The notes under the pieces were generated by a model. The model did not search any database and was not told the DNA's origin. It worked only from the letters and a program-made list of their open reading frames with translations. Source: an uncultured Acidobacteriia bacterium (GTDB lineage: Bacteria > Acidobacteriota > Terriglobia > Bryobacterales > Bryobacteraceae). Taken from it: a stretch of 62,955 nucleotides of DNA. Location: the NCBI GenBank assembly GCA_903907865.1, contig CAIVPR010000021.1, positions 1 through 62,955 on the forward strand. Reading direction: 5' to 3'. A program made the translations under genes and the position numbers. This document shows positions 24,749 through 31,495 of this stretch, piece by piece (within the stretch, counting starts at the first letter, position 1; the number at the start of each line of letters is the position of its first letter).

Positions 24749-26209
24749 TCAAGCGTCCCCGAAAAACCGTCGGATCCGGTCCAGCAACTGCATCTGGCTC
24801 TCGCGCTCCCGCAGCCGGGCCGTCTCCTGATCCAGCTTCTCCCGGATTCCGGCCAGTTCGATTTGCCGACGGGCCATGACGACCGAAACATCCTCGGCCA
24901 GCATGGGCTGCCGCCTCATCAGGTCTTGGATTCCGGCCTTGTTAAGGATGCAGCACTCCACAAGCGTCTCCGCCACCACGCTGGCATTCCGCGCTTCACC
25001 CGTCATGAGAGCGCGCTCGCCGAAGAAATCGCCGTTCGCCATCGTGCCGATCTCCGTTTCCGCGCCTCCTTCGGACGCCGACCGAACAGACACCTGTCCT
25101 TCCACGATGAAGAACATGGAATCGCCCGACTCCCCCTGCCGGATGATGTACTCGCCCGGAGCGTAGGAAAGGTGCGTCAGGTGCTCGCCAAGCAGGGCTA
25201 GATCGTCGTCGGAGACGTGCCGCAGGAAGTGGGCGCCGCGCAGGAGTTCCACATGGTCGATAGACGGCGGGACCGAACGTGGCGCGACCATCTCGACGGT
25301 ATGGGGCAGTTCCCCAAACGGCATTCCGGCCCGCTTGAGCGCATAGAAGAGCCGGACGTTGACGTCCGAGAGCGAGTTCGCGTGCCGGCCGGGCTTGGTC
25401 AGCCATATGCGCGCGGCGTAGCGAATGTTGGCGGGTCCCATCTCCTCGACGACGCAATCGGGGGGCGGTGTGGACGCGACCCCTTCGATGGGAGCCGAAC
25501 GCAGCGCGGCCTCCACGGCCTTGATAACCGACTGCGGGTCGTAGGCGTAGGGCATCTGCAGAATCACCGACCGCCGCTGCGCCTCTCCCAGCACGGTAAC
25601 GTGCGAGCGCGTGAGGTGGCTGTTCGGGACCGCGATGGTGTCGCCGTCGACGGTCTTGAACTCCGTGTGCCGCAGCCGGACGTGCAGAATCCAGCCCGCC
25701 AGGTCGCCGCATTTCACGAACTGGTCGTTCTGGATGCTGCCTTCCAGTTGGATCGCGATACCGCTGGCAATGTTGGCGAGCGTTTCCTGCAAGGCGAGAC
25801 CAAGGACTGCAGTGGCGACGGCGGACGTTGCGAAGATGCCAGTCACGTTGACGCCCGCCCGATAAAGGAGGTTCAGGAGAACCGCCAGGTAGCCCGCGAT
25901 TACGACGGCCTCGGTTGCCCAGCGCGGGACCCGGACCCTACGCAATAGAAGGTTGAACAGCAGCACGCGTCCGACTTGGATCGCTGCCAGTTGCAACATG
26001 GCCGTCGACAGCAGTGGCAGGATCGGTTCGTCACCAAGCCACGGCGACGGTAGGACTCGCAGCGTTCGGATCACGGCGAAGAGCGCGACAAACACCAAGG
26101 CCCGGCGCAGTCGCCGCCGTTCCCGGGCCGTGCGCAACAGGACGGACGCGAGAAGAAAGATGCCGAGCGCGATCCAGACTTGCGTTTCCTGCACGGTCCC
26201 TGTCGGCAT
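24749..26209 (-). CDS. MscS-family mechanosensitive channel with C-terminal cyclic-nucleotide-binding domain
   Basis: This 486-residue inner-membrane protein has about five membrane segments in the first 150 residues. The last, GIFATSAVATAVLGLALQETLANIASG, is the MscS pore helix region. The MscS beta domain follows (LHVRLRHTEFKTVDGDTIAVPNS). A cNMP-binding domain fills about 320-440 (LSYAPGEYIIRQGESGDSMFFIVEGQVSV, GDFFGERALMTGEARNASVVA). The tail is a probable coiled coil (ELAGIREKLDQETARLRERESQMQ). Members of this group are gated or modulated by cyclic nucleotide. The start at 26209 begins the first membrane segment; the long upstream frame is Pro/Arg-rich and not conserved. It is divergent from the amidohydrolase gene across 65 bases. 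Confidence 0.9.
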   Translation of the reverse strand: MPTGTVQETQVWIALGIFLLASVLLRTARERRRLRRALVFVALFAVIRTLRVLPSPWLGDEPILPLLSTAMLQLAAIQVGRVLLFNLLLRRVRVPRWATEAVVIAGYLAVLLNLLYRAGVNVTGIFATSAVATAVLGLALQETLANIASGIAIQLEGSIQNDQFVKCGDLAGWILHVRLRHTEFKTVDGDTIAVPNSHLTRSHVTVLGEAQRRSVILQMPYAYDPQSVIKAVEAALRSAPIEGVASTPPPDCVVEEMGPANIRYAARIWLTKPGRHANSLSDVNVRLFYALKRAGMPFGELPHTVEMVAPRSVPPSIDHVELLRGAHFLRHVSDDDLALLGEHLTHLSYAPGEYIIRQGESGDSMFFIVEGQVSVRSASEGGAETEIGTMANGDFFGERALMTGEARNASVVAETLVECCILNKAGIQDLMRRQPMLAEDVSVVMARRQIELAGIREKLDQETARLRERESQMQLLDRIRRFFGDA

Positions 26210-26274
26210 TCGATATTTTCCAATGATAGAAGAAGGTGGCGCGCCGAGGGCCCCGCCGGTGGTATCTTCACGGA

Positions 26275-27570
26275 ATGCGGACCTTCTTGTATGCGTTGTT
26301 GGCAGCCGTCCCGATGCTCGCGGCGGACGTGGCAAAACCGGTGGTTTTGAAAGCGGCGCGGATGTTCGACGGCCACTCGAACGCCCTTGTGACGCCCGGC
26401 CTGGTGGTGGTGGCGGACGGGAAAATCCTTGGCGTCGGCCCCGGCACACCTATTCCGTCAGACGCCGAAACCATCGATCTGGGCGACGCGACCCTGATGC
26501 CCGGCTTCATGGACGCCCACACGCACCTTTCGATGCCCTACAACGACGATTGGAAACAGGCGACCATCGACAACTTCCGCAAGCCGATCCCCGAAGTGGC
26601 GCTCGACGCGACCGAGAACCTGCGCAAGACGCTGATGGCGGGTTTCACCACGGTCCGCGACGTGGGCTCCCACGACTATATCGATGTGAGCCTGCGCAAC
26701 GCGGTCCGTTCGGGCAAGATTGTCGGCCCCCGGATGCTGGTGGCTGTCTACTCCATCGGCTCGACAGGCGGGCACTGCGACGACGCGTCGGGATTCCGGC
26801 CGGGCATCTTCGGCCACGAGTCGGGCCCAGGCGAAGGCGTGATCAACGGGGCCGACGAGGCCCGCAAGGCTGTGCGGATGGATCTGAAGTACGGGGCCGA
26901 CGTGATCAAGACCTGCGCCACCGGCGGCGTGCTCTCGCTGACCGACGACGTGGACGCCCCGCAGCTGACGCAGGAGGAGTTGAACGCCATCGTCGACGAA
27001 GCGCATGCCGCGCGGCGAAAGTCGGCTGCCCACGCCCACGGGGCAACGGGGGCCAAGCGCGCGATCCGGGCTGGCATTGACTCCATCGAACATGGCTCGT
27101 TCCTCGACGCCGAGGCGCTGGACATGATGAAGGCCAAAGGGACCGTGCTGGTGCCGACACTTATGGCCGGTTGGTGGCTGGCCGACCGAATGGAGCATGG
27201 GGCGTATCTGCCGCCGGAGATCGCGGTCAAGGTTCGGCAGGCGGTGGCGTCGATCAGCTCCATGTTCCGGATGGCTGTCGACAAGGGTGTGATTATCGGG
27301 TTGGGCACCGATGCCGCGGTGGAACCGCACGGCCTGAACGCCAAGGAGTTCGAACTGATGGTGAAGGGCGGTATGAAGCCGCTGGATGCCTTGAAGGCCG
27401 GGACCTCAGTCGATGCGGAACTGCTTGGTCTCTCGAAAACCCTCGGGACCATCGAGAAAGGCAAGATCGCGGACATCGTGGCGGTGCCGGGCGATCCGAT
27501 CCGGGACATTACGGCCACGCAGCGGGTGAAATTTGTGATGAAGGAAGGCGTGGTCTACAAGCGGCCTTGA
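26275..27570 (+). CDS. Secreted amidohydrolase (imidazolonepropionase/prolidase-like)
   Basis: This is a 431-residue metal-dependent hydrolase with a signal peptide (RTFLYALLAAVPMLAADVAK). The TIM-barrel metal site is complete: MDAHTHLS (His82, His84), a candidate carboxylated Lys in ADVIKTCATGG (about 212), HAHG (about 250), IEHGSF (about 271) and GLGTDAA (about 343). The C-terminal DIVAVPGDPIRDIT closes the composite beta domain. Homologues hydrolyse X-Pro dipeptides or similar amides; the exact substrate is unknown. The neighbouring exported peptidase fusion suggests peptide breakdown, an inference. Confidence 0.88.
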   Translation: MRTFLYALLAAVPMLAADVAKPVVLKAARMFDGHSNALVTPGLVVVADGKILGVGPGTPIPSDAETIDLGDATLMPGFMDAHTHLSMPYNDDWKQATIDNFRKPIPEVALDATENLRKTLMAGFTTVRDVGSHDYIDVSLRNAVRSGKIVGPRMLVAVYSIGSTGGHCDDASGFRPGIFGHESGPGEGVINGADEARKAVRMDLKYGADVIKTCATGGVLSLTDDVDAPQLTQEELNAIVDEAHAARRKSAAHAHGATGAKRAIRAGIDSIEHGSFLDAEALDMMKAKGTVLVPTLMAGWWLADRMEHGAYLPPEIAVKVRQAVASISSMFRMAVDKGVIIGLGTDAAVEPHGLNAKEFELMVKGGMKPLDALKAGTSVDAELLGLSKTLGTIEKGKIADIVAVPGDPIRDITATQRVKFVMKEGVVYKRP

Positions 27571-27683
27571 CGGCGCGGTATACTACGATCCAGTTACCCC
27601 CTTCTTTCTGACCGATCCCCGTGGATCGTCGACCTCCCGCTACGTCCCGCGGCACGGCATTTGATGCCATCTAGGAGACCGCA

Positions 27684-29504
27684 ATGAGAGTTCGAATCCT
27701 CCGTGGCTTGCTGGCCTTTGCCGCAGCCACTGCCTTGACGGCCCAACAGGCACCGCCAGCGAGAAGCAGTCCCCCGCCGCCGGATCCGATAGCGCCGTTG
27801 GTGGCCAAACTCGACTTGGAGCGCTACAAGGCCACCATCAAAGGCCTGACGAAATTCGGCGACCGCCGCGATGGCACAGACCGCAACCGCGCCGCCATCG
27901 ACTGGATCGAGGCGCAGCTGAAGAGCTACGGCTGCACAAACACCGAACGCATCCGCTACGAGTACAAGCCAGTGCCTCGCACGGGTGCGGGCGGGCGCGG
28001 CGGACCGGGTCGGGGCAATGCGGCCAATTCCGAGGTTGGCCCCGGCGGTTCCAGACGCCGTGGCAACCGGATTCCTGAGTCCGTCAACAACGACCCGCTG
28101 AAACAGCCCGACATCGCCCTCCGCGAACTCAACACCCAGCCCTCGACGCCGGGTCCGCGCGAGGAGGTGTATTGCACAAAGGTCGGCTCGACCCACCCCG
28201 AGGAGATGTACATCCTCGCCGCCCACATGGACGGAATCGGCTGGGGCGAGGCGGCCAACGACGACGGCTCCGGCACCGCGCTCGTGATGGAATTGGCGCG
28301 CATTCTGTCCGATCCCGACGTCCACACCGAGCGCTCCATCCGCTTCGCGCTCTGGAACAACGAGGAGACGGGTCTAAACGGCGCCCGTGCGTACGTCGAC
28401 CAACGCAAGGACTTGCAGGGCATCGAGTCGCCCGCCGGGTCCGGCCAATACCCCGAACCGAAATGGCTGGGCATGATCCAGCACGACATGATGATGTTCG
28501 ACCACGGGATGCCGCTGGCCGACGGCACCATCCCGAAGAAGCAGCGCCCGGAGGCGGACATCAATATTGAGTACCAGTGGAACTCGAAGCTTGCCGACGC
28601 CTCGATGGCGCTAGCGCAAAAGTTCGCGTTGGGGAACGACAAATACGCCGTCAGGTACCCGTCTACCGTTGGCCCGCACATGACCAACACGGACTCGACG
28701 CCTTTCATGGACATTACGCCGTCCATTAGCCTGCGCGAGGCGGAGCGTGGTTCGCAGCTCGGCAACGGCTGGGATCCGCAGCACCACCAGCCGACGGACC
28801 TGTACTCGACCTACGACGACGACGATTTCCGGCTCGGCCTGAATGCGGCGCAGACCACGCTCGGCACGGTGTTGCAGTTGGCGGGGCTCATCGACGGCGC
28901 GCCCATGGTGCAGCCGGGTGCGCCCGGCAAACCTGGGAAGATCCTCTTGCCGAACACCGCCAGTGCCGCTCCCCGGCCCCCGAACGACTCCGATGTGGCG
29001 TTCATGCAGGGGATGATAATGCACCACTCGCAGGCGGTCGAAATGGTGGCGCTGCTGCGCACGCGGGGCAAGGACAAGGACCTGCAGAGCCTCGGGAGCC
29101 GCATTACCATTTCGCAAACTGACGAGATGAAGTTCATGAAGCAATGGCTGGAGGAGCGGGGCAAGCCGATCGAAATGCCGATGGACCACAGCCACATGGA
29201 CCACAGCATGGCGGGTATGAACCATGGGATGCAAATGATGATGCCCGGCATGCTCACCCCTGAACAAATGAAGGAGCTGGAAGCGGCCAAAGGAGCCCAG
29301 TTCGACCACCTTTTCCTCACGGGGATGATCCAGCACCACCAAGGGGCCCTCACCATGGTCCAAGACCTTTTCAATACCGCCGGAACCGGCCAGGACGCCG
29401 TCCTCTTCGACTTCGCCACCGACGTCGACAACACTCAAAGCGCCGAAATCAAGATCATGCAGGGCCTCCTCTCGAAGGAAAAGCTGCTCAAGGAGAAAAA
29501 ATGA
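27684..29504 (+). CDS. Secreted M28 zinc peptidase fused to a DUF305 domain
   Basis: This 606-residue exported protein is a clear two-domain fusion. Residues 40-405 are an M28 aminopeptidase: HMDGIGWG (His181, Asp183), ANDDGSG (191-197), NNEETG (225-230), an Asp in QHDMMMFD and the late His in DPQHHQPTD (367-368) give the two-zinc site. A Pro/Gly linker follows. Residues 434-600 are DUF305, with its two signature helices FMQGMIMHHSQAVEM and LTGMIQHHQGALTM and a Met/His-rich stretch (MDHSHMDHSMAGMNHGMQMMM) typical of metal-binding loops. The signal peptide ends near ALTAQ. TAGGAG precedes the ATG. Its stop overlaps the next ATG (ATGA). The fusion is unusual; see findings. Confidence 0.9.
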   Translation: MRVRILRGLLAFAAATALTAQQAPPARSSPPPPDPIAPLVAKLDLERYKATIKGLTKFGDRRDGTDRNRAAIDWIEAQLKSYGCTNTERIRYEYKPVPRTGAGGRGGPGRGNAANSEVGPGGSRRRGNRIPESVNNDPLKQPDIALRELNTQPSTPGPREEVYCTKVGSTHPEEMYILAAHMDGIGWGEAANDDGSGTALVMELARILSDPDVHTERSIRFALWNNEETGLNGARAYVDQRKDLQGIESPAGSGQYPEPKWLGMIQHDMMMFDHGMPLADGTIPKKQRPEADINIEYQWNSKLADASMALAQKFALGNDKYAVRYPSTVGPHMTNTDSTPFMDITPSISLREAERGSQLGNGWDPQHHQPTDLYSTYDDDDFRLGLNAAQTTLGTVLQLAGLIDGAPMVQPGAPGKPGKILLPNTASAAPRPPNDSDVAFMQGMIMHHSQAVEMVALLRTRGKDKDLQSLGSRITISQTDEMKFMKQWLEERGKPIEMPMDHSHMDHSMAGMNHGMQMMMPGMLTPEQMKELEAAKGAQFDHLFLTGMIQHHQGALTMVQDLFNTAGTGQDAVLFDFATDVDNTQSAEIKIMQGLLSKEKLLKEKK

Positions 29505-31495
29505 CCGCACTTCGCACTTCCGTCCGTTCGGCCCGCGTTGCGGCCGCCTTCCTCCCGCTCCTCTGCCTTGCGCAGGCTCCGCCACCGGCGCCCGCACCCC
29601 AAGCGGAGGAAAAGATCCCTACGCCGATCCCCTCGACTGTTCCGACCAACCCGCGCTCCGGCAACGACGACCCGCGCGTCGGTCTCAAAGGGGGACTCTA
29701 CGACGCGGGCGAGGCAGCGTCGGGCTTGGAACGGCTGGCGTCCCTGCCCAAGCCCCCTGGTTTCGCGCCAGGCAACGCCTTTGCAGCCCCGGCACCGCCC
29801 CCGGCTCCGGGTGAAGGTGGCGGCCGCGGCGGTCCGCCTCCCTCGCAGTACGGTTCCACCAACTCCGACCTCGCCTTCAGCGGCAACCACCTCTTCGTCG
29901 GCAACTACAACGGCATCAATACGTACGACATCGACAGCCCCGCCAAGGTGAAGCTGCGCGCGTCGCTGGTCTGCCCCGGCGGGCAGGGCGACGTCTCGGT
30001 CTACGGCCACCTGATGTTCATGTCCGCCGAGGCGTTGAACGGCCGTACCGACTGCGGGACCCAGGGAATCCCCCTGCCTCCCGGCTATGTGCCCCCTCCG
30101 CCACCACCTCCACCCGCCCCGGCGGCTCCGGGCGCGGCACCGGCTCCCGGTGGACGCGGACCCCGTCCCCTGCCCCCGGCCAGCCCGGACCGATTCCGAG
30201 GCGTCCGCATCTTCGATATTTCGGACATGTCGAATCCCAAACAGGTGGCGGCGGTCCAGAGTTGCCGTGGCTCCCACACCCACACATTGGTGATCGATCC
30301 CAAGGACAGGGAGAACGTCTACATCTACATTTCGGGCACCGGGGCCGTCCGGCAGGCGGAGGAGATGGGCGAATGCTCGGGCGGTGATCCCAAGACCGAC
30401 CCCAACACGGCGCTGTTCCGGATCGACATTATCAAGGTACCGCTGGCGCATCCCGAACTGGCCAAGATTGTGGCCAATCCGCGCATCTTCGCCGATGAGA
30501 AGACCGGCGCGCTCGACGGCCTCTGGAAGGGCGGCAACCACGGCGAGAATACGCAGACGACGTCCGAGACCAACAAGTGCCACGACATCACGGTCTATTC
30601 CGCGATGGGCTTGGCCGCCGGTGCCTGTTCCGGCAACGGCATCCTGCTGGACATTTCCAATCCGGTGAAGCCGGTCCGCATCGCCGCCGTCAGCGACCCC
30701 AACTACGCGTTCTGGCACTCTGCGAACTTCAACAACGCGGGGACGAAGGTCCTCTTCACGGACGAATGGGGCGGCGGCGGCCAACCGCGTTGCCGAGCCA
30801 CAGACCCGATGAATTGGGGTGCCGACGCGATCTTCACGCTGAAGGACCGGAAGCTGACGCTGTCCTCCTACTACAAGATGCCCGCTCCGCAGACGGAATT
30901 CGAGAACTGCGTGGCGCACAACGGGTCGCTGGTGCCGATTCCGGGCCGCGACATTCTGGTGCAATCGTGGTACCAGGGCGGGATTTCGCTGGTGGATTTC
31001 ACCGACGCCTCGCATCCGGTCGAGGTGGCCTATTTCGACCGCGGGCCGGTGGACGGCACCAAGCGGGCGATGGGCGGCCAGTGGTCGACCTACTGGTACA
31101 ACGGGTACATTTACGGATCCGAGATCGCGCGCGGCGTGGACGTGTTCAAGCTGGTGCCGAACAAGTTCCTGACGCAGAACGAGATCGACGCGTCGAACCA
31201 AGTGCATTTCGACGAGTTGAACGTGCAGAACCAGCCGAAGATTGTTTGGCCGTCGAACTTCATTGTGGCGAAGGCTTATATCGACCAGTTGGCTCGGGGG
31301 ACGTCCGTGTCGGCCGAGAAGCTGGCGGCGTTGAACGCGGCGATTGCGAAGGTGGAGGGGTCGTCGGCGGACAAGAAGGCTGCAGCGCAGTTGAAGGCGT
31401 TGGGGGTTGGTTTGGCGAAGTCAGCGGCCACGGCGAAGAATGCGGCGGATGCCGAGCGGCTGCGGGCTCTGGCGGCGATTATTAAGCAGAGCTAG
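29501..31495 (+). CDS. Secreted LVIVD-repeat (beta-propeller-like) protein
   Basis: This is a 664-residue exported protein with a signal peptide (RVAAAFLPLLCLAQA). Repeats of the LVIVD/propeller type recur: GNHLFVGNYNGINTYDIDSPAKVKLRA, GVRIFDISDMSNPKQVAAV, GILLDISNPVKPVRIAAV, GGISLVDFTDASHPVEVAYF and GSEIARGVDVFKL. Two Pro/Gly/Ala-rich linkers are present (about 95-115 and 185-220). The C terminus is an Ala/Lys-rich helix (VEGSSADKKAAAQLKALG). The ATG overlaps the upstream M28-DUF305 stop, so the two are translationally coupled. A structural or binding role outside the cell is inferred; no catalytic motif is evident. Confidence 0.82.
   Translation: MTALRTSVRSARVAAAFLPLLCLAQAPPPAPAPQAEEKIPTPIPSTVPTNPRSGNDDPRVGLKGGLYDAGEAASGLERLASLPKPPGFAPGNAFAAPAPPPAPGEGGGRGGPPPSQYGSTNSDLAFSGNHLFVGNYNGINTYDIDSPAKVKLRASLVCPGGQGDVSVYGHLMFMSAEALNGRTDCGTQGIPLPPGYVPPPPPPPPAPAAPGAAPAPGGRGPRPLPPASPDRFRGVRIFDISDMSNPKQVAAVQSCRGSHTHTLVIDPKDRENVYIYISGTGAVRQAEEMGECSGGDPKTDPNTALFRIDIIKVPLAHPELAKIVANPRIFADEKTGALDGLWKGGNHGENTQTTSETNKCHDITVYSAMGLAAGACSGNGILLDISNPVKPVRIAAVSDPNYAFWHSANFNNAGTKVLFTDEWGGGGQPRCRATDPMNWGADAIFTLKDRKLTLSSYYKMPAPQTEFENCVAHNGSLVPIPGRDILVQSWYQGGISLVDFTDASHPVEVAYFDRGPVDGTKRAMGGQWSTYWYNGYIYGSEIARGVDVFKLVPNKFLTQNEIDASNQVHFDELNVQNQPKIVWPSNFIVAKAYIDQLARGTSVSAEKLAALNAAIAKVEGSSADKKAAAQLKALGVGLAKSAATAKNAADAERLRALAAIIKQS

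Follow-up and report, generated by a model that had tools for sequence, protein, structure and literature searches.

Positions 27,684 to 31,495 of contig CAIVPR010000021.1 (GenBank assembly GCA_903907865.1; 62,955 nucleotides, hereafter the window), from an uncultured Acidobacteriia bacterium of the Bryobacteraceae, hold a single frame that joins an M28 aminopeptidase to a DUF305 domain, followed by the gene of a probably propeller-type protein that we call LVIVD-type. The conserved unit is the pair of DUF305 and the LVIVD-type gene. This unit is older than the fusion, and the M28 peptidase is a recent add-on to it. The fusion itself is natural, rare and lineage-limited. Our tentative reading, to which we give slightly less than an even chance, is that M28 was joined onto an older metal-dependent envelope system in which a copper-handling DUF305 protein would serve the propeller protein.

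A conserved pair of DUF305 and LVIVD-type genes

As DUF305 places we counted those similar to that of the window, with three candidates scored per genome. A number of 107 unfused places was obtained, 100 of which were fetched with flanks of up to 4 kb a side (shorter at contig ends). An LVIVD-type gene lies directly downstream on the same strand in 98 of these 100 loci of the class; in the two others (L203 and L210) the contig ends there. Among the seven places outside the 100, three adjoin an LVIVD-type gene, two stop at contig ends and two were not fetched. A 4-nucleotide overlap links the genes in 67 of 82 unfused pairs, and both proteins form one frame in 11 of the 98 adjacent loci. On the stretches that flank these 100 unfused places, no M28 gene was detected (E up to 1e-6).

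At the genome level, DUF305 of this branch occurs in 102 of 399 genomes of the class and the LVIVD-type gene in 102 of 398, with both present in 99 (Fisher p 7e-86). These genome sets were entered by hand, and the second sample is one genome smaller, probably by G398. The three genomes with DUF305 only comprise two that are cut by contig ends (G344, G164) and G398, which has the partner adjacent (L166) and probably falls outside the second, LVIVD-type sample. The three genomes with the LVIVD-type gene only comprise two in which it starts at a contig start (G048, G365) and one with a 22-residue match (G391).

Across the phylum sample, the core of the LVIVD-type protein is matched in 62 of 297 genomes, scattered rather than universal. 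Twenty loci of other classes were picked by hand from 48 genomes listed with an LVIVD-type match; 19 contain the pair, six of them as one frame. Partnerless fragments (L262, L264, L277) and genes truncated at contig starts (L260, L261, L263) occur as well. Outside the phylum, Nonomuraea gerenzanensis encodes a DUF305 lipoprotein on the opposite strand to two tandem LVIVD-type genes (L257:7037-10705); the record measures 11.85 Mb and is classed as a plasmid. One DUF305 followed by two tandem LVIVD-type genes is found at L325:3985-8394 and L328:3012-7440.

In the plasmid collection, DUF305 was matched in 134 records and the LVIVD-type protein in one, so the pairing is a trait of this DUF305 branch and not of DUF305 at large. 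DUF305 is also present in 5 of 14 control genomes, and viral contigs contained no relatives. Because the pair stays together across many members of the phylum, it is the real puzzle, with the fusion as its newest twist. We did not find the two-gene unit described in open PubMed Central (PMC) text: in the open-licence text, neither DUF305 together with peptidase M28, LVIVD or Acidobacteria nor 'choice-of-anchor B' was found, and matches for DUF305 with beta-propeller concern DUF3050 instead.

An M28 peptidase fused in frame to DUF305

The open frame of the fusion (27684-29504, forward strand) counts 606 codons with no internal stop, and both domains pass their Pfam cut-offs. Peptidase_M28 (PF04389) is matched at residues 167-300 with 76.5 bits (cut-off 21.3), and DUF305 (PF03713) at residues 437-596 with 135.9 bits (cut-off 27), over model positions 1-151 of 151. 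The M28 pattern HxD / D / EE / D / H (H181, D183, D193, E227, E228, D268 and H368), in which H181, D193, E227, E228, D268 and H368 are the co-catalytic metal-site residues of the family, is invariant in 55 of 55 alignment rows. An AlphaFold2 model of the fusion (55 rows) reaches a mean predicted local distance difference test score (pLDDT) of 78.6 and a predicted template modelling score (pTM) of 0.64. Its M28 and DUF305 parts mostly score at least 80; the loops at 101-115, 359-362 and 504-515 and the linker at 411-428 are weak, with residues 411-418 and 421-428 below 50. The 15 top Foldseek matches of this model in the PDB are all aminopeptidases of M28 fold. By score, metal-site pattern and modelled fold, the M28 part belongs to the M28 family, and aminopeptidase activity is predicted. 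The chain is probably exported, as its N-terminus reads as a signal peptide that is modelled as a helix (residues 2-19). The host genome (7.5 Mb) holds one DUF305 and no second close copy of the fusion's M28, the next match scoring 47.6 bits.

An assembly or frameshift artefact is rejected and keeps next to no probability: the fusion frame is unbroken in each of four separate assemblies, its linkers are of three dissimilar kinds, and the guanine plus cytosine (GC) content at third positions stays even along the frame (0.77-0.89 for each 100-codon step, junction included). A reading made earlier from the window's letters alone (the sequence-only reading) had described one in-frame chain of a complete M28 and a complete DUF305, a visible M28 metal-ligand pattern and no frameshift signs, all of which is borne out. 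It had also named two MHHxxAxxM helices; the first is there (MHHSQAVEM, 446-454), but the second reads QHHQGALTM (550-558).

Spread and origin of the fusion

The fusion was found in 4 of 19 genomes of the genus (G000, G133, G347 and G405), some of the 19 being only 83-88% complete. Six others carry both parts at separate places, one has M28 alone and eight are without a close match to either. Class-wide, 3 of 399 genomes contain the fusion (G405 lies outside that sample), and in the genome collection DUF305 is present on 3 of 80 loci kept from 242 relatives, these matching G133, G347 and G405. All four frames are intact and each ends in an ATGA overlap with the LVIVD-type start, as had been noticed for the window; for G405, the first 58 codons of the partner are available and read as an LVIVD-type start. 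Other M28-DUF305 single chains beside an LVIVD-type gene thus exist, and neither domains that are always separate nor a hidden stop, either of which the sequence-only reading would have taken for an artefact, was encountered. The fusions of G347 and G405 are almost the same, which leaves three diverged versions in all; the other fusion proteins are 75-76% identical to that of the window.

The junctions show how the fusion arose. In DUF305 proteins without M28, IVQPGAPG or similar comes directly after the signal peptide: a strict QPGAPG-type pattern occurs in 88 of 101 DUF305 open reading frames (which include two fusions and Nonomuraea), a near variant in 11 of the 13 others and none in two. 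At all four fusion junctions, ...QLAG is followed after a few residues by (M/I)VQPGAPGK, and stand-alone M28 homologues mostly stop within about 15 residues of fusion residue 401-402. These homologue ends and the retained mature start show that a complete M28 replaced the DUF305 signal peptide, so that export of the chain should now depend on the signal of the M28 itself. Long frames before DUF305 (L313, L314, L316, L325) and before M28 (L110) were considered as other N-terminal fusions and rejected, because a signal-peptide-like stretch inside the frame before the domain (by eye) makes the extra length look spurious.

In the M28 tree, the four fusions group together (89/80, not starred). In the DUF305+LVIVD tree, the G133 fusion stands apart and the unfused G177 groups with the other three fusions. 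Separate LVIVD and DUF305 trees (approximately unbiased test, p-AU 0.397 and 0.18, respectively) neither show nor reject a single fusion clade. The fusion's M28 is otherwise a widespread stand-alone gene, with relatives in records titled Gemmatimonadota and Pseudomonadota. The M28s of the genus fall into two far-apart clades, and for that reason the gene seems to move.

The join may be fortuitous: M28 would have landed upstream of DUF305 and only supply its signal peptide and translation start, without functional coupling. A joint placed between a full M28 and the DUF305 mature start, the low-confidence linker of the model and the seeming mobility of the M28 gene all fit this explanation. Yet the active-site pattern is retained in all four fusions at the identities given above, and we lean against a fortuitous join while counting it a serious contender.

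The sequence-only reading went further and suggested an exported complex in which the hydrolysis of peptides is tied to the handling of metal; to give examples of our own, the peptidase might free or trim metal-binding peptides, or DUF305 might supply metal to the M28 site. The fusion is intact in four genomes, and genomes with the fusion's M28 more often hold the pair, with figures uncorrected for descent and genome size of 20/25 versus 82/374 in the class and 11/12 versus 10/89 in the family (the 89 were counted by hand, seven genomes without a match being unlisted). When the three fusion genomes are excluded, the pair is present in 17/22 (class) and 8/9 (family). The 25 do not include G297, for which no DUF305 is listed and the M28 is in pieces that score below our cut of 450 bits; its inclusion gives 20/26. 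These numbers are a statistical hint at a possible functional link between M28 and the pair. However, both parts lie at separate places in 6 of the 19 genus genomes, the co-occurrence ignores descent and genome size, and M28 is missing from the flanks of all 100 unfused loci. As the conserved unit consists of DUF305 and the LVIVD-type gene, and M28 is absent from those flanks and widespread alone, the view that the peptidase makes the operon is not supported. What stands of the exported complex is a real in-frame fusion, probably exported, beside an LVIVD-type gene. Only in this lineage might a complex join the hydrolysis of peptides to metal handling, and coupling of this kind appears unlikely to us.

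A candidate metal-dependent propeller and its DUF305 partner

The DUF305 part is related in sequence to solved CopM and DUF305 chains. H447, H448, H551 and H552 are present in 102 of 102 DUF305 rows, and M441, M444, M454, M485, M520, M523, M529, M548, M558 and M592 in 92-100% of them, a conservation in line with the predicted copper binding. Within the portion of the literature used, copper binding or tolerance is the best-described DUF305 role, and CopM binds copper and is located in the periplasm and the medium (PMC4335983).

The 664-residue LVIVD-type protein is, to judge from its sequence, probably exported and of propeller type. Taken alone it matches no Pfam family, whether at E up to 0.01 or at E up to 0.1, and its match to TIGR04312 (choice-of-anchor B) is sub-threshold (41.8 bits versus a cut-off of 100). 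In an alignment of 49 rows from two phyla (47 of the class and two of Nonomuraea), TIGR04312 is matched by all rows and PF08309 (LVIVD) by 26, the window row not being among these 26 (E up to 0.1 for both families). PF08309 scores 29.0 for a Nonomuraea homologue and 19.2 for the single-chain relative L211, against a cut-off of 20.2. The match that the LVIVD label of the sequence-only reading implies is seen in some relatives and not in the window protein itself.

Four histidines (259, 361, 406 and 473) are invariant in the 49 rows and H261 is conserved at 98%; many Asp, Cys and Trp are likewise invariant across the two phyla. In a blade register set by eye, each of the four histidines takes the same place in its blade (blades 3 to 6), where the innermost strand putatively begins. 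Some propeller enzymes place metal sites at that very point. The four invariant histidines suggest a metal centre, the metal of which could be other than copper. As a precedent, human SELENBP1 is described as a thiol oxidase that depends on copper and for which a propeller of seven blades has been modelled (PMC10362175).

Based on the kinship with CopM, the register of the invariant histidines and the SELENBP1 precedent, we propose a metal-dependent propeller served by a copper-handling DUF305 protein. The CopM-like DUF305 protein would capture copper outside the cytoplasm and either deliver it to the LVIVD-type protein or guard it on that protein's behalf; the histidines of four neighbouring blades would form a metal centre at the propeller mouth. 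For the present genus, and more weakly, the peptidase may have gained a second job beside the propeller, or may merely be a new carrier of DUF305. A bolder form, in which an undescribed copper-dependent propeller enzyme with a dedicated copper chaperone extends over one phylum, occurs in an actinomycete and has been wired in one genus to an aminopeptidase, giving one secreted chain that handles metal and cuts peptides beside the propeller, strikes us as improbable.

Several observations weigh against the proposal of a metal-dependent propeller with a copper-handling partner. The single-sequence fold of the LVIVD-type protein failed (pLDDT 35), for which reason the blades were read from the sequence and the seven-bladed register was set by eye. 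Its best profile matches among solved structures are 5HRM and 5IOJ (haloalkylphosphorus hydrolase; E 0.002, about 31 residues, an LVIVD-like motif), and the 5HRM match points to copper no more than to a hydrolase propeller; a single-sequence search of solved structures gave no match under E 0.02. A relation to SBP56 (PF05694) was looked for and not found (hhalign probability 1.6 over 21 columns, with an SBP56 profile of only 4 rows), and SBP56 is absent from the families listed for the 49 rows. The fusion scores 81.4 for the CopM metallochaperone model NF049983, below the NCBIfam cut-off of 90. At L321:3857-5731, an LVIVD-type gene occurs without DUF305 within 10 kb. Finally, no third neighbour is common to the pair, as no cluster of open reading frames was found in more than 4 loci (crude gene calling) and, of the three clusters that reach 4 loci, one is a broken LVIVD-type gene; with neighbours not annotated singly, no metal gene is thereby linked to the pair by neighbourhood. 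The genome of L321 carries a second LVIVD-type gene on a different contig.

The LVIVD-type protein may also be a structural or binding propeller at the cell surface and no metal enzyme, with DUF305 as its assembly or anchoring partner. LVIVD repeats are described in cell-surface proteins (PMC2447325), and neither Pfam nor NCBIfam gave an enzyme family as a match to the window protein. For a scaffold, however, the invariance of four His and of many Asp, Cys and Trp across two phyla would be unusual, and the weak profile match is to a hydrolase; we hold this explanation to be rather unlikely.

Through its near-constant LVIVD-type neighbour, and the natural single-chain versions, this DUF305 branch gains a partner that can be tested and a candidate for a metalloprotein. 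As a ready construct, the fusion would allow metal binding, peptidase activity and binding of the partner to be assayed together on one chain.

Feature map and neighbouring genes

Table 1. Features of the fusion gene and its LVIVD-type partner, in window positions.
Feature	Position	Strand	Residues or motif	Basis or remark
Likely ribosome-binding site	27673..27677	+	AGGAG	6 nt 5' of the fusion ATG; sequence
Putative Sec-type signal peptide of the fusion	27684..27746	+	1-21, MRVRILRGLLAFAAATALTAQ	Signal and cleavage site by eye
M28 aminopeptidase part	27684..28889	+	1-402	End approximately where stand-alone M28 homologues end
Junction and linker	28890..28991	+	403-436	Low-confidence stretch in model
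QPGAPG motif	28911..28928	+	410-415	Mature start of unfused DUF305 proteins, retained in fusion
DUF305 domain	28992..29471	+	437-596	Four long helices, HH motifs, Met/His-rich loop
ATGA overlap, fusion stop with LVIVD-type start	29501..29504	+	AATGACC	Sequence
LVIVD-type partner gene	29501..31495	+	664 amino acids	Signal peptide by eye
Invariant His259	30275..30277	+	GSHT	Putative blade 3
Invariant His361	30581..30583	+	CHDIT	Putative blade 4
Invariant His406	30716..30718	+	WHS	Putative blade 5
Invariant His473	30917..30919	+	NCVAHNGS	Putative blade 6

Directly upstream of the fusion, on the same strand, the window encodes a probably exported amidohydrolase (Amidohydro_1; 26236-27570), a gene without a match in the flanks of the other fusions (for L240, 2.5 kb upstream only). 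An MscS-type channel with a C-terminal cyclic-nucleotide-binding domain is located at 24749-26449 on the reverse strand. The protein at 22885-24300 matches no Pfam family (E up to 0.01); its GEDHGMSEIPAF stretch is reminiscent of erythromycin-esterase-like proteins.

Comparison with known systems

The DUF305 part is most readily compared with CopM of Synechocystis (PDB 5FEJ and related entries), which is likewise an exported, Met/His-rich DUF305 protein with two HH motifs (PMC4335983). CopM is a stand-alone protein of copMRS, whereas the DUF305 of the window is part of one chain with M28 and has an LVIVD-type gene as its partner. The M28 part resembles the aminopeptidases of Vibrio proteolyticus and Streptomyces griseus in fold (TM-score over the target up to 0.77) and has their metal-site pattern, but unlike these enzymes the fusion has an extra N-terminal part with a Gly/Arg-rich low-confidence loop (approximately residues 95-130), and a C-terminal DUF305 domain. 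With SBP56 / methanethiol oxidase, described as a propeller with a His-based copper site (PMC10362175), the proposed analogy would be one of working only, as a sequence relation to the LVIVD-type protein is not detectable. LVIVD (PF08309) and choice-of-anchor B (TIGR04312) proteins have LVIVD-like strand motifs in common with it. In contrast to them, the window protein stays below both curated cut-offs, and its family is set apart by four invariant His and by a DUF305 neighbour that is almost always present.

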